Origin: Desulfomonile tiedjei DSM 6799
GTDB taxonomy: Bacteria; Desulfobacterota; Desulfomonilia; Desulfomonilales; Desulfomonilaceae
DNA length: 64,000 nt
Direction: 5' to 3'
Assembly: GCF_000266945.1 (NCBI RefSeq)
Contig: NC_018025.1
Coordinates: 4,530,001-4,594,000 of the forward strand
A model generated the notes under the pieces. It did no database searches, was not told the origin of the DNA, and was given only the letters and a program-made list of their open reading frames with translations. Shown here one piece after another: positions 14,056 through 50,434 of this stretch. Positions within the stretch are counted from its first letter, which is position 1; each line of letters starts with the position of its first letter. Both the position numbers and the translations under genes were made by a program.

Positions 14056-14585
14056 AAGTGATTGCGGAGTTGGTATTGACTTAAAGGTGTGTGCACAATG
14101 TCAAAGGACAGATTCTTTCCTGCACGCACACAATTGAACTGGCTTCCGCATTAGGTAATTCCGAAGGTTCAACAAATTGTTTGATTCTTATTTTTCACAA
14201 GTGCTTTACGCAAACAAAACCCACTTTGGAGTGCGGTTATTATTTTCCAAAAAACAGCGAATGGCAAGCGCGCACCAAACGCGCTGCCCTGATTGTTCAA
14301 TCCCGCGTAAAAGGACTGTGGTGGATCGCCACAGTGGCGTGGTATTTCGCTACACTCAATTTTCATTGTTTATTCGCAAGCTTAGTCCTATCCATATCCA
14401 ACCGTCTCAACTGTTGTAGTTTTCTACATCTATCAAATCACCTCACCTGTCGTCGCAACACCTTGTTTTTGCAGTTTTTATTCGCTTGGCACATCCTATG
14501 CAGTTCATATGGGCAAGACCGATCATCGAGAGATCGAAACTGAATGCTCCCGATTTTGAAGAGAATACTCAAAAGGAGGCCCGCC
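14056..14585. other. Intergenic region without a recognisable gene
   Basis: About 530 bases, AT-richer than its surroundings. Both strands have open frames, but none has a ribosome site, normal composition or a recognisable motif. It should hold the promoters of the two flanking divergent units. Confidence 0.5.
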
Positions 14586-14783
14586 ATGACAAGCAACCAA
14601 ATCAGAAGGCTCATGGAAGTGAACGCAAAGCAGTTGAAATGCAATCATGCGCTCACAGGAGCAGCTCCGGCGAACAAGATGTGCCCGTATTGCTATCAAT
14701 GCGCCACCTGTCCATACGACCAGATGCTTGAAGATACGGTTCACATCTACAGAGGCCTCACACCGGTGCCTGCCCGAGCATAG
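14586..14783 (+). CDS. Small four-cysteine-module protein
   Basis: 65 residues from an ATG with AAAGGAGG nine bases upstream. Five cysteines: C19, C33, C36, C39, C42, followed by PYDQMLED. The spacing C-x13-C-x5-C-x2-C then (P)(Y)D matches both N-terminal modules of the larger protein at 14922; C36 is extra. A metal or Fe-S site is likely but unproven. The N-terminus is a basic helix (MTSNQIRRLMEVNAKQLK). The gene is followed by a strong hairpin and then its larger relative, so the two probably form one operon. Confidence 0.8.
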   Translation: MTSNQIRRLMEVNAKQLKCNHALTGAAPANKMCPYCYQCATCPYDQMLEDTVHIYRGLTPVPARA

Positions 14784-14844
14784 GGCCTCTCCGAAACGCA
14801 CACGGCATTTCATTCATCAGATAACGTCGGGCTCTGGGACATAA

Positions 14845-14876
14845 GCGGTCGAAACCCAGCGGACGGTTTCGACCGC
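14845..14876 (+). other. Perfect 12-bp hairpin between two co-oriented genes
   Basis: GCGGTCGAAACC, an eight-base loop, then GGTTTCGACCGC. There is no T-run directly after it, so it is not a classical terminator. It may be an mRNA-processing or stability hairpin, or an attenuator for the gene at 14922. Confidence 0.6.
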
Positions 14877-14921
14877 ACACCTGCTTAGGGAATAACGAGG
14901 TTTTTTCGAAAGGAGTAGCCA

Positions 14922-15821
14922 ATGGCCGTCAAAGAGAAAAAGAAGAGTGGGGTGACGGTGTTCAACCTGGCCGACAAGGAATGCGTGTGGATGCGGGCGC
15001 GAATTGTCGGCGTAAAGTACTGCGATAATGCATTCGATTGCACGAGCTGTACTTTCGACAAAGCGATGACCCGCAAAATGTCCAAAGATTCCCGGGACGC
15101 CAAGTGGAACACGAAAATGTCCAAAATGCTCGGCAGCAACGATCTGCGTTGTCGTCATGCCGCCACGGGAGGCGCTCCGCCCTCGAAGAAGTGTGCAAAC
15201 AGTTATGATTGTGCACGCTGTCCGTACGATCAGATGCTGGACGATATGATCCAGACTGACCACACGCTCTTCGGACCGCCCCAGTATATGAATGCTCACG
15301 GATATCTCGTTCCCAGAGATTACTATATCCACAAGGGCCATGGCTGGGCTCGGGTCGAGTACGGCGGCAGGATCAGAATAGGCCTGGATGATTTCGGCAA
15401 TCGTCTCGTGGGCAGGCTTGACGGTTTTCGGCTGCCGTCACTGGGAACGCGGTTCAAAGTCGAGGACGAATCGTTCATAGCCGAGCGCGAAGGTCACGAG
15501 GTCGGCATCCGGGCTCCCCTCACGGGAGTGGTCACGGCTGTGAATCATAAACTTCTGGACCATCCGGATTCCCCCAATGCAGATCCGTACGGCTCAGGAT
15601 GGGTCATGTTGATCGATCCTATGGAGCTGAAACACGATCTGGAGGGGTTGGCATTCGGTCTGGAAAGCGTGAAATTCATCGAAGCCGAAGCAGAACGGCT
15701 ACTCTCCATGATTACCGACGATCCGTCTGCTGCAGCCGCTTTGGGTGGTGAGCCGATCAAAGATGTTTACGGTGCGTTTCGAGACGTGGGATGGGATGGC
15801 CTTGTGAAGAAATTCCTGTGA
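14922..15821 (+). CDS. Glycine-cleavage-H-like protein with two four-Cys modules, no lipoyl lysine
   Basis: 299 residues. Residues 1-110 hold two cysteine modules, C21-x12-C34-x5-C40-x2-C43 and C77-x13-C91-x5-C97-x2-C100, each followed by a (TF/PY)D(K/Q) turn. Residues about 130-260 align with the H-protein/biotinyl-lipoyl fold ('YYIHKGHGWARVEYGGRIRI', 'GLDDFGNRLVG', 'RAPLTGVVTAVN'). The lipoylated lysine of H-protein falls at G191 here (ERE-G-HEVGIRAPLTG), and no other lysine is near, so it cannot work as a normal H-protein. No gcvT, gcvP or lipoate ligase is nearby. Function unknown; a cytoplasmic scaffold or metal/redox carrier is my inference. A good AAAGGAG precedes the ATG. Confidence 0.85.
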   Translation: MAVKEKKKSGVTVFNLADKECVWMRARIVGVKYCDNAFDCTSCTFDKAMTRKMSKDSRDAKWNTKMSKMLGSNDLRCRHAATGGAPPSKKCANSYDCARCPYDQMLDDMIQTDHTLFGPPQYMNAHGYLVPRDYYIHKGHGWARVEYGGRIRIGLDDFGNRLVGRLDGFRLPSLGTRFKVEDESFIAEREGHEVGIRAPLTGVVTAVNHKLLDHPDSPNADPYGSGWVMLIDPMELKHDLEGLAFGLESVKFIEAEAERLLSMITDDPSAAAALGGEPIKDVYGAFRDVGWDGLVKKFL

Positions 15822-15945: not shown

Positions 15946-16193
15946 TACCTGAATGGATACCCCTCCGATTATCTTACTCCGTCGAAAATTCCAAAAAAAC
16001 GTATCTCTTTAGGGCTTTTTTCTTGCCAGAAACGAAAGCCGTGAACTACTTTGGGCGTGAGAGGCATAGTGCATTTGACAGGTACATTTTGTGAACTGTG
16101 AGAGGACGCCCCTGGTTTGCACTTTTCTCTTTCATGTGCCTTATTCGTCTGCCAAGACGGGAATTCGGGTCTCTTTCAGAAGAGGAATCACGT

Positions 16194-17516
16194 GTGACAT
16201 CACCAAATAAGACGGTTTTTTCCCTGACGGTTCAGGTAAATCCGGCTTTTTTGCCGGTAGTTACCGCGTTTATAGAAAAATCCTCCCGTGCTTTCGGCCT
16301 GGGAGAATCGGAAGCACTTTCCCTGACACTGGCTGCGGAAGAAATTTTTTCCTATTTGTGCTCCACAGGCCGGTTGAATGAGGCACTTTCCGTAACATGC
16401 ACCGGCGGTGGTTACTATGTTCAGGAGGAGTTCCGATTCCGAGCAGAGCACTTCAACGTGAAAGCTTTCAACCTGACTGCTTCAGCCTCGCCTGACGAAG
16501 ACGCGGACTGGCTGCAGACAGGTCTTCTCATAGCCTCAAGGATGGTGGACCGCTTCCAGTTCTTCCAGGAAGACGGCACGTCAAGGCTCCTGCTGCGAAA
16601 AGAAAAGTATTACCCGGAACCGGACGATTCGCCCGTTGCCTCTGCACAGCCCCTTCGGAATATCGCGATCAGGCCTCCCGATCCTGAAGAGTTAAAGGTT
16701 GCTTCTCACCTGATAGCCGGCAATTATCCGCTGCATTGGATTCCGCAAAGGTTGCGGTTTCCGGGTAAGCTCGTCGATATGGTGCAATCGGGAGATTTTG
16801 GGGCTGCCGTTGCAGCGGACACCTCGGGTCACCTGGGCGGACTTGTTGTGTGGCACATGCATGAAAACAAGCTGATCGGGCTCTATGGTCCGTATGTCTT
16901 TGACCGCACCAAGAGCTCTGACATTTCCCGGGAGCTCATAGAATCTTTTATAGGAATCGTAGCCAAATCAGGAGCAATCGGAATTCTGAATCGATATCCT
17001 ACTCCGGAAATTCCCACGGAATACTTTGAGGTTTTGGGGTCTTTCACCGTACGTGCGCCCTCAGGGGATTTGGTACAGAGTGAGGCTTACTACCGCCACC
17101 TGGAAGAAGACCTTGGCATGGCTGTCTGGTCACACCCGCTTCTGGAAGGTTTTTTGAGAGAACAGTATGAAAAGCTCTTTTTTGCTCGGGATATTCAACT
17201 CATTACTAGTGAAGGCGAAACATCTTCGCCCTTTTCTGTTCTGTCCGCACACGTGGATCGGAAAGTAGGAAGGGTGACGCTCCGTCCGGTGTGGTGGGGA
17301 AACGACGCAGAAGAAAATCTTGCGGACCATGTACGTATTCTGAAACAGGAGAATATTCCGCAGATCTTCTTCGAGATGGACCTGGGAAGATCCTGGCACA
17401 GTCGATTTACTCCGGGACTGTTCAGCACCGGCTTTGAACCGCGGCTGGTACTCCCGTATGCAGGAACGGGCGATCTGGTCATGTTTCAGCTCAGAGATGA
17501 CGAGGCACAAGTATGA
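16194..17516 (+). CDS. Degenerate RsbW-like ATPase domain fused to an acetyltransferase-like region
   Basis: 440 residues from a GTG at 16194 with AGAGGAA upstream; the frame stays open to an ATG at 16098. Residues about 1-145 resemble the HATPase_c_2 fold of anti-sigma kinases: 'VVTAFIEKSSRAFGLGESEALSLTLAAEEIF' and, at the end, 'LQTGLLIASRMVDRFQF..DGTSRLLLRK'. The N-box Asn is Tyr and the glycine-rich ATP lid is not recognisable, so kinase activity is doubtful. The rest looks like GNAT-type folds in this phylum ('AAVAADTSGHLGGLVVWHMHENKLIGLYGPYV'). It overlaps the aminotransferase by four bases (ATGA), so the two are translationally coupled. Probably a regulatory protein of the partner-switching cluster. 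Confidence 0.65.
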   Translation: MTSPNKTVFSLTVQVNPAFLPVVTAFIEKSSRAFGLGESEALSLTLAAEEIFSYLCSTGRLNEALSVTCTGGGYYVQEEFRFRAEHFNVKAFNLTASASPDEDADWLQTGLLIASRMVDRFQFFQEDGTSRLLLRKEKYYPEPDDSPVASAQPLRNIAIRPPDPEELKVASHLIAGNYPLHWIPQRLRFPGKLVDMVQSGDFGAAVAADTSGHLGGLVVWHMHENKLIGLYGPYVFDRTKSSDISRELIESFIGIVAKSGAIGILNRYPTPEIPTEYFEVLGSFTVRAPSGDLVQSEAYYRHLEEDLGMAVWSHPLLEGFLREQYEKLFFARDIQLITSEGETSSPFSVLSAHVDRKVGRVTLRPVWWGNDAEENLADHVRILKQENIPQIFFEMDLGRSWHSRFTPGLFSTGFEPRLVLPYAGTGDLVMFQLRDDEAQV

Positions 17517-18661
17517 CCTGTCTGAACCTGGACCATCTTCTCCCGGATTATATCAAGCACTTTGAAGCGTACATTCCGAGCAAACCTGACCCGGAACTTA
17601 TGCGCTTGTACGGTTGTTCCCGGCTCTATAGGCTTAACAATAACGAAAATCCTCTCGGTCCGCCCGAAGCCGCGCAGGAGGCAATCCGCAATTTTCCTCC
17701 CCCCAGTGCGGCCGTGTATCCCAGTGGAGATGCCTATTATCTGCGAACCAAACTGGCACAAAGATTCGGTATGGATCCGGACCAGTTCCTCGTAGGAAAC
17801 GGCGCCAATGAAGTTATCAGCTTCGTGATGAAAGCCTTCTGTGAAAAAGGAGACAACATTATCACGGCTGATAAAACCTTTGCAGTGTACGAATGGATCG
17901 CGGAATTCTCCGGTTTCGAGGCCAGGCTGGTCCCGCTCAAAGACTATGCATTCGACGATCGGGCAATGCTGGATCGCATAGATGAGGGGACCAAAATCCT
18001 GTTCGTCTGCAATCCGAACAACCCCACAGGCACGTACTGGAATCGCGACAAGCTTTCCAGGTTTCTGGATGCAATAGGTGGCCGTCGCATTGTAGTCGTT
18101 GATGAAGCATATTTCGAGTTCGTGGAAGCGGAAGATTTCCCGAATGGAATGGATTATATTCGCGATCACCCGAATCTGGTGGTCTTCCGCACATTTTCAA
18201 AGATGTACGGACTGGCGGGGCTGAGGATCGGCTATCTGGCAGGATCGCTGGAGGTTGTCCAAGCCATCAGACGCACGTGTATCGTGTACTCGGTGAATGC
18301 ACTCGCTCAGATCGCGGCGGCAGCGGCACTGGATCAGGACGATCACGTACTGCGAAGCCGTGCCTTGGTAAGAGAAGGCAAGCTTTATCTCAAAAGAGAA
18401 CTCGCCAGGCTGGGTCTTTCATCTCAGGTGGGTGAAGGTAATTTCATTATGATAAGGCTTCCTATGAGCGACACCCTCGCGTATCGGAAACTGATGACCT
18501 ACGGAGTAATGGTTCGTGCCATGACCGGGTTTCGTTTTCCCAACCACATCAGAGTGACCGTTTCTCATATGGAAGCATTGCAGGCATTCATCGAAGCTTT
18601 GGAAAAAATTTTGCCTCATCGTCCGAGACTTCTCCATTCAATACCAAAGGAAACCGGATGA
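17513..18661 (+). CDS. HisC-like class I/II PLP aminotransferase
   Basis: 382 residues. The family motifs are 'RLNNNENPLGPPEAAQEAI' at about 40-58, 'NPNNPTGTYW' at about 164-173, and the PLP-lysine motif RTFSKMYGLAGLRIGY at about 225-240. This is the histidinol-phosphate aminotransferase/threonine-phosphate decarboxylase (CobD) group. The sequence is closest to HisC in my reading, transferring amino groups between histidinol phosphate or an aromatic amino acid and 2-oxoglutarate. It has no his or cob neighbours; instead it lies inside a signalling cluster, coupled by ATGA to the gene before it. A moonlighting or non-histidine substrate is therefore possible. Confidence 0.85.
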   Translation: MTCLNLDHLLPDYIKHFEAYIPSKPDPELMRLYGCSRLYRLNNNENPLGPPEAAQEAIRNFPPPSAAVYPSGDAYYLRTKLAQRFGMDPDQFLVGNGANEVISFVMKAFCEKGDNIITADKTFAVYEWIAEFSGFEARLVPLKDYAFDDRAMLDRIDEGTKILFVCNPNNPTGTYWNRDKLSRFLDAIGGRRIVVVDEAYFEFVEAEDFPNGMDYIRDHPNLVVFRTFSKMYGLAGLRIGYLAGSLEVVQAIRRTCIVYSVNALAQIAAAAALDQDDHVLRSRALVREGKLYLKRELARLGLSSQVGEGNFIMIRLPMSDTLAYRKLMTYGVMVRAMTGFRFPNHIRVTVSHMEALQAFIEALEKILPHRPRLLHSIPKETG

Positions 18662-18706
18662 ACAACACCACCGGGGAAACGGAGACCCGTTCTGCTCAAG
18701 CCGAAG

Positions 18707-18862
18707 ATGGCCAGGCGTTACGACCTGTCTATAGCAGCCTATGGCGAAGATTACTCTATCAAAATCTTCTCGCGATCCCGAGACCACCCACTCGGGCAAA
18801 CAATCAGGGTGATTATTGTTCCACTGAGCGGAGAATGGAATGAACATACAGTTTGCAAATGA
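18707..18862 (+). CDS. Small uncertain ORF between the aminotransferase and STAS genes
   Basis: Two frames compete here. A 61-codon frame from 18658 to 18843 has ATGA overlaps with both neighbours but an unnatural composition. A second frame, given here (51 residues, MARRYDLSIAAYGEDYSIKI...), has normal codon use and composition and is open from the aminotransferase stop, but its ATG lacks a ribosome site and it overlaps the STAS gene by 23 bases. A single frameshift would join the start of the first to the body of the second. No family is recognised. Confidence 0.35.
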   Translation: MARRYDLSIAAYGEDYSIKIFSRSRDHPLGQTIRVIIVPLSGEWNEHTVCK

Positions 18863-19169
18863 AGGCGATTGGATCGTTGTGGGGCTTGAGGGCAGAATGG
18901 ATGCCGTCACCGCACCGGAGTTCGAGAAACGAATGCTGGAGCATATACGTCAGGGTTCGGCCAAGCTCATTCTGGATTTCAGCAAATTGGAATATATCAG
19001 CAGTGCCGGACTCCGCAGCGTACTTGTAACGGGCAGAAGTTCAAAAGCCAGGGGTGGTGACATGGCCTGTTGCGGATTGCAAGGTGTGGTCAAGCAAGTA
19101 TTTGAAATTTCGGGTTTTCAGAAGATTGTGCCGATTTTCGATTGCTTGAACGATGCACTTAAGAAATAG
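18840..19169 (+). CDS. STAS-domain anti-sigma-factor antagonist
   Basis: 109 residues, a complete single STAS domain of the SpoIIAA/RsbV type. The conserved 'DFSKLEYISSAGLRSVLV' at about 46-63 contains the serine that is phosphorylated by an RsbW-like kinase in this family. Typical role: unphosphorylated form binds the anti-sigma or switch kinase; an RsbU-type phosphatase resets it. That phosphatase is encoded 26 bases downstream. GGAGA lies close upstream of the ATG. The only kinase-like protein nearby (16194) appears degenerate, so the real kinase may be elsewhere. Confidence 0.9.
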   Translation: MNIQFANEGDWIVVGLEGRMDAVTAPEFEKRMLEHIRQGSAKLILDFSKLEYISSAGLRSVLVTGRSSKARGGDMACCGLQGVVKQVFEISGFQKIVPIFDCLNDALKK

Positions 19170-19194
19170 CGGTTTTTGATCGAGGACGTAGATC

Positions 19195-21129
19195 ATGAAA
19201 ACCAGGTGGTTTTACAGCCTTGCAACCAAGACGACTGTTTTGGTGGCGTTGGGAACCTCGCTGGTTTTGGCTGCCGTACTCACGTACGGTTACAGGTCTT
19301 CACGGGACATTATCGAATATCAGGCAGGCCAGAGTCTCCTGAATCTTGCAAAATCCACCGCGGTCCGAATGGAGTTGGAACTAAGATCCGTAGCGGAAGT
19401 GGCAGGAAATCTTGCCGCAGTTCTGGAAACCGACCGACTCGACGCGGTCACCCTAGACGCACTCATCCGAAGGAACGTCCAAGACCATCCCGCTGTATTC
19501 GGGTCCGCTGTCGCTTTCGAGCCTTTCAGCTTCGTATCTGGAGTCAAAGCGTATGCCCCGTATTTTTTTCAACAGCAAAATGGCATTTCTTTCATCGATC
19601 TTGCCACTGAGTCGTACGATTATTTCCACCGCGACTGGTACTCGGTTCCGAGAGAAATCGGAAAGCCCATGTGGAGTCCTCCGTATTTTGACGAGGGTGG
19701 CGGCAACGTGGTCATGACCACGTACTCTCAGCCTTTTTTTCGGCCTCACTCCTCAGCCGAGAGACAGATCTGGGGAATAGTCACTGCTGACGTATCCGTT
19801 GAGTGGCTCACGAAGGAACTTTCAACTGTACAGGCCGGAAAAACCGGCTATTGCTTCTTGATTTCGGAGACGGGTGTTTTCCTCGCACATCCCGAGAAGA
19901 ATTTTATCATGCAAGAATCGGTCTTCAGTCTTGCAGAAGAGAATAATTTACCCGGTTTGCGGGAAACCGGAAAGCGAATGCTCTCCAGTGACTCGGGATT
20001 CATCGATATGGGTGAATCAATTGACAAAAAGCAATTGTTTCTCGGATTTGCACGCTTACCCTCCACGGGATGGTCCCTGGGTGTTATCTATCCCAGAGAC
20101 GAGCTCTTTTCGGAAATATCAATGCTGTACCGGACTAATGTGATGCTTGCGGTAGCCGGTCTCTTTGCGCTGTTAGCCGTAAGCGTGCTTCTTGCGAGGT
20201 CCGTGACATCTCCACTCAGGAAAATTGCCGAAGCTGCTTCGCGGGTCGCAGCCGGCGATCTGAACTACGATCTTCCGGCGACTCACGGACGAGACGAGGT
20301 CGGTGAGCTTGCACGTGCTTTCAAGAACATGACCGTGGACCTGAAGAAATATATCCAGGATCTCACGGTTACTACTGCAGCAAAAGAGAGAATAGAAAGC
20401 GAACTCGGGGTCGCTGCATCTATCCAGAAGAGTATGTTGCCGTCGAAATTTCCCGACCGCGAAGATTTCGACATCTATGCAGTCATGGACCCGGCAAAAG
20501 AGGTGGGTGGCGATTTTTACCAGTTTCTTCTGGTGGATAGCGATCGTTTGTTCGTGGCCATAGGAGACGTTTCAGGCAAAGGGGTCCCCGCTGCACTCCT
20601 CATGACGGTCGCCACATCCCTGATCCGGAGCGCCGCGGCTGAAGGACAAGCTCCGCATTCGGTCCTCGAACACTTGAACAATCATCTGGTGCCGGGAAAC
20701 GACAGTTGCATGTTCGTAACGGTTTTCTGCGGGATGCTGGATCTCAAAACCGGAGCATTGACGTACGCGAATGGAGGACACGAACGACCTCTCATCGTAA
20801 GAGCAGATGGGCACATTGCCTCATTGAGCCCCCCTGGAGGGCCGGTTTTGGGCATTATGGATGGAATGGAATTCGCGGAAGAACAAATCGTTTTGGAACC
20901 GGGCGATTGTCTGATTTCATTCACAGATGGAGTCACGGAAGCAATGAATACGAACGATGAACTGTACTCACGAGACCGGCTGATAAGCTGTCTTGACGGA
21001 TCAAAGGGCGTTACCGCTCATTTTGTCACAGCTAAGGTCTTGGATTCCGTTTCCACTTTTGCGACCGGTGCACCCCAAGCAGACGATATCACTGTCCTTG
21101 CGGTAAAGTTTAATGGGCGACGGCACTGA
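19195..21129 (+). CDS. Membrane RsbU-type PP2C phosphatase with Cache sensor and HAMP
   Basis: 644 residues. TM1 at about 11-33, a periplasmic Cache-type sensor (about 35-310, with 'DYFHRDWYSVPREIGKPMWSPPYFDEGGG'), TM2 at about 315-335, HAMP at about 336-390, then a SpoIIE/PP2C phosphatase domain (about 420-640). The metal-binding motifs are 'EVGGDFYQFL', 'AIGDVSGKGVPAAL' and 'DCLISFTDGVTEAM'. It would dephosphorylate the STAS protein encoded just upstream in response to an extracellular ligand. The final gene of the cluster; the multi-hairpin repeat follows. Confidence 0.92.
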   Translation: MKTRWFYSLATKTTVLVALGTSLVLAAVLTYGYRSSRDIIEYQAGQSLLNLAKSTAVRMELELRSVAEVAGNLAAVLETDRLDAVTLDALIRRNVQDHPAVFGSAVAFEPFSFVSGVKAYAPYFFQQQNGISFIDLATESYDYFHRDWYSVPREIGKPMWSPPYFDEGGGNVVMTTYSQPFFRPHSSAERQIWGIVTADVSVEWLTKELSTVQAGKTGYCFLISETGVFLAHPEKNFIMQESVFSLAEENNLPGLRETGKRMLSSDSGFIDMGESIDKKQLFLGFARLPSTGWSLGVIYPRDELFSEISMLYRTNVMLAVAGLFALLAVSVLLARSVTSPLRKIAEAASRVAAGDLNYDLPATHGRDEVGELARAFKNMTVDLKKYIQDLTVTTAAKERIESELGVAASIQKSMLPSKFPDREDFDIYAVMDPAKEVGGDFYQFLLVDSDRLFVAIGDVSGKGVPAALLMTVATSLIRSAAAEGQAPHSVLEHLNNHLVPGNDSCMFVTVFCGMLDLKTGALTYANGGHERPLIVRADGHIASLSPPGGPVLGIMDGMEFAEEQIVLEPGDCLISFTDGVTEAMNTNDELYSRDRLISCLDGSKGVTAHFVTAKVLDSVSTFATGAPQADDITVLAVKFNGRRH

Positions 21130-49777: not shown

Positions 49778-50209
49778 TTATCTGGTCTCCTCGAAATACT
49801 GCTGCTCCAATACCGGAGAGAGGCAGCCGGGAGGACGTCTTCTGCGAGCGGCTGCTTGGAGAACTTTCGTAACAAGCTCTTCGAAATCGCAGGGTTTTAT
49901 GAGATAAGCGAATGCACCCAGATTAGTAACTTCAAGTGCTGCTTCGAAAGAGGGATGAGCGGTCAAGACTATAACCTGCGTTTGAGGCGAGATCTTCTTT
50001 ATCTCTTTCAACACCTGTATTCCATCGAGTCCGGGCATTCGCACGTCCAGAATCACCACATCGAAATCCCGTGTTTCGGTTATTTCTGTAATGGCTTCCT
50101 CTCCTGATTTTGCAAGAGAAACGTCGATTCCTCTTCTCGAGAGACGCTTTTGCATAACGGAAAGAAATGCCTGCTCATCGTCCACAACGAGTAGCTTTGA
50201 ATAACCCAT
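49778..50209 (-). CDS. Stand-alone response regulator (REC domain)
   Basis: 143 residues from the ATG at 50209. The acidic pocket 'VVDDE' at 8-12, the phospho-acceptor D55 ('VVILDVRMPG') and K105 ('AYLIKPCDF') are all present. The C-terminal tail has no DNA-binding domain. It probably acts through protein contacts. No histidine kinase is adjacent. 85 bases separate it from the CBS-ACT gene on the same strand. Confidence 0.9.
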   Translation of the reverse strand: MGYSKLLVVDDEQAFLSVMQKRLSRRGIDVSLAKSGEEAITEITETRDFDVVILDVRMPGLDGIQVLKEIKKISPQTQVIVLTAHPSFEAALEVTNLGAFAYLIKPCDFEELVTKVLQAAARRRRPPGCLSPVLEQQYFEETR

Positions 50210-50434
50210 GTAGATAATCCAATCCGTTATTGACACTTCACCCCGGAAACAGAATAAGCAAAGCATGTGCCAATGTTCATGATTTGGCAGCCCCTCAAAA
50301 AACCATGACTTTACGTTAGCTTATCTCGGCTTCATGTCAGGAGCTAATGTTTCTCTATGGTTCTTCGTCTGATAGTCTATTGTCGTTAACCCATACCGAA
50401 AATGGGCAAACGTACGCATTCGTCTAACACCAAT

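Follow-up and report, generated by a model that had tools for sequence, protein, structure and literature searches.

Two adjacent genes of Desulfomonile tiedjei DSM 6799, i.e., P0001 and P0002, encode members of a five-gene Desulfobacterota cassette that is recurrent and conserved (with high confidence) and that apparently represents an undescribed genetic system. In this system, which looks like an undescribed redox-linked one and not like a part of glycine metabolism, the H-protein fold of P0002 is re-used without lipoylation, again with high confidence. Both genes are located in the window, i.e., the whole stretch of 64,000 nucleotides that was analysed (4.530–4.594 Mb of the 6,500,104-base chromosome; the genome has one small second contig), where the following features were delineated:

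14487..14502 (+), sigma-54 (–24/–12) type promoter TGGCACATCCTATGCA, near-consensus, 83 bases 5′ of the first start codon
14573..14582 (+), ribosome-binding sequence AAGGAGGCCC of the small gene (P0001), present in 6/6 relatives bar one leading base
14586..14783 (+), P0001, open reading frame of a 65-aa protein with a single four-cysteine module; no Pfam family matched
14640..14711 (+), P0001 module, C19-x13-C33-x5-C39-x2-C42-P-Y-D, with C19, C33, C39, C42 and D45 invariant
14922..15821 (+), P0002 (HL8C), open reading frame of a 299-aa eight-cysteine H-like protein
14982..15050 (+), first P0002 module, C21-x12-C34-x5-C40-x2-C43-T-F-D, invariant in 80/80 homologues
15150..15221 (+), second P0002 module, C77-x13-C91-x5-C97-x2-C100-P-Y-D, invariant in 80/80 homologues
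15327..15680 (+), H-protein fold domain, residues 136–253 (GCV_H 8.8e-16; TM 0.93 to 3a8j_E, rmsd 1.2 Å)
15492..15494 (+), codon of Gly191, in the column of the lipoylated lysine of true H-proteins (by alignment anchored on the invariant P199)
15681..15818 (+), C-terminal helical extension, residues 254–299, beyond the GCV_H match and common to the H-like family

An earlier note on this DNA had described a four-cysteine module that occurs once in the 65-residue protein and twice at the N-terminus of its larger neighbour, and both open reading frames and all three copies were recovered as described. The copies follow the consensus C-x12/13-C-x5-C-x2-C-x-aromatic-Asp, and the P0001 module most resembles the second module of P0002 (59% identity). 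The first P0002 module had the x12 spacing in 83/83 copies counted, while the second has x13 in D. tiedjei and x12 or x13 among relatives. When a profile of the module (A3) was run against the 6.5 Mb genome, it returned exactly these three (E-values of 7e-23, 6e-17 and 8e-13) and no other significant copy (next best E-value 0.3), and a chance origin of the motif was rejected because the profile finds only these copies genome-wide. Moreover, all eight P0002 cysteines were invariant in 30, and then in 80, aligned homologues (35–87% identity, from Desulfobacterota and related MAGs), as were the Asp after each module, W23, R78, G127, H137 and H140; the lack of conservation in orthologues that the note had named as a ground for abandoning its proposal was thus not observed. 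Across the wider family, zero, one or two module copies precede the H-like domain and the free small protein carries one, and this varying copy number marks the cysteine module as a separable unit. The cysteine region was predicted with moderate confidence in the P0002 model (pLDDT about 60–80) and with low confidence as an isolated module (pLDDT 58).

The C-terminal part of P0002 scored 58.4 bits against GCV_H (cut-off 22.2) and shared 28–30% identity with the H-proteins of E. coli, M. tuberculosis and T. thermophilus. The structure of P0002, predicted by AlphaFold2 with the 80 homologues (mean pLDDT of 81, and above 90 over most of the H domain), matched several H-protein structures, including that of E. 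coli, with TM 0.90–0.93 and rmsd 1.2–1.7 Å, the fold being common over about 120 residues. G191 forms the tip of a predicted beta hairpin (strands 183–189 and 192–197), so that the H-protein fold with glycine at the lipoyl site, as claimed in the note, is borne out by the model. Alignment and sequence revealed no lysine in residues 184–199, i.e., no modifiable lysine in the lipoyl loop of the kind that would have undone the note's claim. Among the 80 homologues this column holds mostly G, D, S, E or N (K in 4/80), and the canonical H-proteins of the D. tiedjei genome have K. The domain is followed by the helical extension ending in ...DVYGAF..GWDGLVKKFL, in which G275, G276, D281, W291 and F298 are conserved (A2 alignment). 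The fold match, the glycine at the site and the absence of a lysine conserved throughout the family together indicate that the H scaffold is re-used without lipoate.

A role in glycine cleavage was rejected for P0002, since the lipoyl lysine is missing, the equivalog scores are too low (TIGR00527, 53.9 vs. a cut-off of 115.85; NF002270, 59.7 vs. 117) and gcvT is distant. The only GCV_T gene of the genome adjoins a canonical gcvH at 1.73 Mb, 2.8 Mb off, in line with the earlier statement that no glycine cleavage genes are near. A plasmid search yielded, among the matches listed, ordinary gcvH only. The D. tiedjei chromosome encodes, at about 2.50 Mb, another H-like protein that is non-canonical (L139:10786-11310, a true member of NF045810 GcvH_rel_desulf with 197 bits). 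In addition to four lysine-bearing GcvH-like proteins, the genome thus has two distinct non-GCS H-like types.

P0002 might nevertheless still be an acyl- or lipoyl-type carrier like LbpA, with either the modified lysine or the attached group being a different one. In favour of this, the H-like protein LbpA has an obligate link to an Hdr-like complex (PMC6067878), and 43/80 homologues have some lysine within residues 186–198, but the P0002 loop is devoid of lysine, the site column is mostly G/D/S/E and the neighbouring lysines are not conserved; such a carrier role is very improbable.

Both genes are under purifying selection when compared with their closest relative, L057 (dN/dS of 0.078/1.79 for P0002 and 0.118/1.18 for P0001), and a pseudogene was rejected on this ground. 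That P0002 is a decaying, functionless gcvH duplicate might be proposed from its lost glycine-cleavage residue and from the canonical gcvH genes remaining in the genome, yet the cysteines are invariant, the promoter is conserved, the distribution is wide and purifying selection is strong, all of which already contradicts this idea and leaves it scarcely credible. A total of 43/297 sampled genomes of the phylum contain a full-length P0002 homologue, the closest named relatives of the host being Desulfomonile MAGs. At 19/78 loci, the gene immediately 5′ of the H-like one encodes a small four-cysteine protein.

Upstream of P0001, a GG-N10-GC element, as looked for in sigma-54-dependent operons, was present and conserved. 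Two sigma-54-type elements were observed in the window vs. 0.16 expected, and at homologous loci a site scoring at least 10 of the 12 consensus positions occurred in 59/77 cases, compared to 21/733 control genes taken from the same contigs. Alignment of six Desulfomonile-group sequences revealed the (T)TGGCAC and TGC blocks and AAGGAGGCCC as conserved islands, and this conservation of AAGGAGGCCC speaks for a start of P0001 at 14586 instead of 14544. Shine-Dalgarno sequences precede both open reading frames (AAGGAGG at 14573–14579 for P0001 and AAAGGAG before 14922 for P0002). As part of the best explanation, P0001 and P0002 probably constitute a sigma-54-dependent operon. Further upstream, a partly conserved block at 14415–14428 contains an inverted repeat (TGTAG-TTTT-CTACA) that is a possible activator site, the repeat not being exact in relatives. 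The second sigma-54-like element, TGGCACATGCTTTGCT at 50257–50272 (–), adjoins the start of a receiver-domain-like protein at 49778–50266 (–).

The survey for conserved neighbours that the earlier note had recommended was carried out by clustering all ORFs of 80 named loci and typing the recurrent neighbours with Pfam. It uncovered three such neighbours, i.e., an archaemetzincin (Peptidase_M54), a response regulator with a sigma-54-activation domain (NtrC-type) and a PAS histidine kinase, which 59, 59 and 44 of 78 loci, respectively, encode at a distance of up to 6 kb from the H-like gene (many contigs being truncated). In two Desulfomonile relatives (L059 and L060) the order kinase, regulator, M54, small protein and HL8C is contiguous on one strand. 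Across the 297 genomes, M54 was present in 42/43 with HL8C vs. 68/254 others (Fisher 6e-20, uncorrected for phylogeny), and M54 lay within 6 kb at 43/55 HL8C loci spanning about 17 sampled families.

In D. tiedjei itself, neither the kinase set nor Hdr genes are found beside the P0001/P0002 operon. The kinase-regulator-M54 trio is intact at about 0.582–0.586 Mb, 4 Mb away, and with cluster members of other loci its regulator shares 75% identity and its protease 66%; the cassette is thus invisible within the window because this genome has separated its genes. From their adjacency at other loci, we infer that the sigma-54 regulator of the cassette acts on the operon promoter. The kinase usually has a Rossmann-like N-terminus, with a GxG motif in 31/63 clustered members (among which are some other kinases), and the D. 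tiedjei copy is degenerate at this GxG region. The M54 partners keep HExxHx5HC...C..C in 60/60 cases, with the active-site motif intact. When compared with HEXXHXXGXXHC-X4-C-X-M-X17-C-X2-C, the His, Glu and Cys ligands were present in 60/60, while many have N, D or S in place of the Gly. The D. tiedjei copy passes the cut-off for Zn-dependent archaemetzincins (NF033823; 153.6 bits vs. 145) and does not reach the non-proteolytic one. No description of the cassette was found in the open-access literature on H-like proteins and Hdr, on archaemetzincins and two-component systems, or on this organism.

The genes at 16098–21129, 3′ of the operon in D. tiedjei and L057, form a partner-switching-like set, i.e., a 472-aa protein that matches HATPase_c_2 weakly, an aminotransferase that is HisC-like by sequence reading alone, a STAS protein and a Cache-HAMP-SpoIIE phosphatase. 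These STAS/SpoIIE genes were set aside as partners, since they accompany the operon only in this closest relative.

At other loci, H-like domains without the lipoyl lysine were fused to redox proteins, namely an HdrA-like protein, an MvhD-like protein and a NuoG-type ferredoxin. Specifically, one chain (L112:8184-9509) combines [2Fe-2S] and [4Fe-4S] domains (Fer2 and Fer4), a cysteine module and GCV_H, and is encoded inside a NuoEFG-like/HdrA cluster, immediately 5′ of an HL8C gene. Two further fusions join GCV_H to an HdrA-like protein (L140:2705-6109) or to Fer4 and FlpD/MvhD (L039:4136-7102). In L126, the order HL8C-HdrC-HdrB-HdrA is found with the M54-regulator-kinase set on the other flank, and 22/78 loci have Hdr/Nuo-type genes no more than 6 kb away (a raw count with no control rate). 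The earlier note had suggested a metal- or Fe–S-based system re-using the H-protein scaffold. Of this suggestion, the re-use holds, in the form of re-use without lipoate, and the redox or Fe–S link is supported by genomic context (i.e., the fusions and the Hdr-type neighbours), with nothing from the window contributing to it.

Two loci (L037:5123-8920 and L146:6153-9112) carry three or four tandem lysine-less H-like genes. In L037, these are preceded by HdrA/MvhD and FrhB/FdhB-like genes and have M54, regulator and kinase genes next to them. H-like proteins without cysteine modules, some apparently with N-terminal transmembrane segments, were seen in L141, L142, L143, L144, L145 and L155. In L143, the kinase, M54, regulator and H-like proteins are encoded together with an NrfD membrane protein, and the module-less proteins beside these partners suggest an older, membrane-linked version of the system.

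The explanation that we prefer, with a probability of about 45%, is that P0002 is a non-lipoylated H-fold adaptor of Hdr-type complexes that carries metal-thiolate modules, is induced through the kinase and sigma-54 regulator, and is processed or removed by M54; confidence in the exact mechanism is moderate to low. The H fold would dock onto Hdr/Mvh/NuoG-type flavin-iron-sulfur oxidoreductases, a class to which relatives without the lipoyl lysine are directly fused. The two P0002 modules and that of the small protein would hold metal-thiolate sites (Zn or Fe–S) making the adaptor redox-responsive, the kinase would sense a redox or nucleotide state and switch the operon on through the sigma-54 regulator, and the archaemetzincin may mature or remove the adaptor. 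More tentatively, at somewhat less than even odds, the Desulfobacterota may have converted the H fold from a lipoate carrier into a family of metal-thiolate redox adaptors for HdrA/MvhD/NuoG-type complexes, the amount of which is controlled by a dedicated kinase, sigma-54 regulator and archaemetzincin.

The main rival is a regulatory or stress system based on zinc or thiols, in which the cysteine modules would serve as Zn sites with a structural or sensory function, the H-like protein would be the adaptor, substrate or inhibitor of the archaemetzincin, the kinase/regulator pair would set its amount, and the Hdr link of the relatives would be incidental. Three points speak for it, i.e., M54 and the two-component genes are more tightly associated (59/78) than Hdr (22/78), the cysteine region has weak, below cut-off Pfam matches to zinc fingers (zf-CHY, 0.012; Elf1, 0.18), and the archaemetzincin relative CarG works in transcriptional control (PMC3427221). 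However, HdrA-like, MvhD-like and ferredoxin proteins with a directly fused H-like domain that lacks the lysine are difficult to account for as incidental, and the cassette M54 keeps the catalytic Glu absent in CarG, with the D. tiedjei copy passing the Zn-dependent cut-off only. On balance, this rival appears rather unlikely.

Less probable still, and clearly doubtful, is that the modules are [4Fe-4S] electron-transfer sites and HL8C a ferredoxin-like subunit of Hdr/Nuo-type complexes, with the H fold as a mere assembly platform. While the module in L112 comes right after the [2Fe-2S] and [4Fe-4S] ferredoxin domains of one chain, the hosts are strictly anaerobic and each module has four invariant cysteines, the motif is unlike recognised [4Fe-4S] ferredoxin motifs, and profile searches found neither an Fe–S profile match nor a solved structure sharing it. 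Moreover, many H-like relatives in the same complexes do without the module, so that electron flow there does not depend on it.

Should the reading as a redox adaptor family be true, bacterial archaemetzincins would gain their first physiological role, together with a candidate substrate. The role of a non-lipoylated H-like protein, the targets of bacterial archaemetzincins and the regulation of Hdr-type bifurcating complexes in sulfate reducers become testable questions, and many 'glycine cleavage system protein H' annotations in these genomes concern proteins incapable of glycine cleavage.

When compared with known systems, P0002 shares the fold of GcvH (PF01597/TIGR00527; TM 0.93), but differs from it by the missing lipoyl lysine, a score below the equivalog cut-off, the additional N-terminal cysteine modules and C-terminal helices, and the absence of a nearby gcvT. 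The annotated non-canonical H-like families NF045810 (GcvH-related, Desulfobacterota) and TIGR03077 (not_gcvH) match P0002 weakly (0.0015 and 2.3e-6, respectively), which lies far under both cut-offs (18.3 vs. 150 bits for NF045810). LbpA, a lipoylated H-like protein that is essential for and obligately tied to the Hdr-like sulfur-oxidation (sHdr) pathway (PMC6067878), is genetically tied to heterodisulfide-reductase-like proteins, a setting of which that of P0002 is reminiscent. In contrast to LbpA, which is lipoylated with dedicated ligases, the P0002 family lacks the lysine and has added cysteines, the loop of P0002 itself offering no acceptor lysine for the lipoylation that defines LbpA; LbpA hosts are sulfur oxidisers, whereas those of the P0002 family are, by record titles, mostly sulfate reducers and relatives.

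Archaemetzincins are described as scantily characterised, the archaeal enzymes being without an established substrate, and their relative CarG is non-proteolytic (PMC3427221). The cassette protease keeps the zinc-binding and Cys4 motif of the family (M54; NF033823), which elsewhere is an isolated gene of unknown role or the inactive CarG, from which the cassette proteins differ by their catalytic Glu. Searches of the open-access literature yielded no report of M54 being paired with kinase, sigma-54 regulator and H-like protein. Finally, HdrABC/MvhD complexes are linked to this family through the lysine-less H-like domains of relatives that are fused or adjacent to HdrA, HdrB, HdrC or MvhD, while P0002 itself lacks flavin and ferredoxin domains and is not encoded beside Hdr genes. 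What is new here is apparently a variant of the known H fold within a regulated system without prior description.
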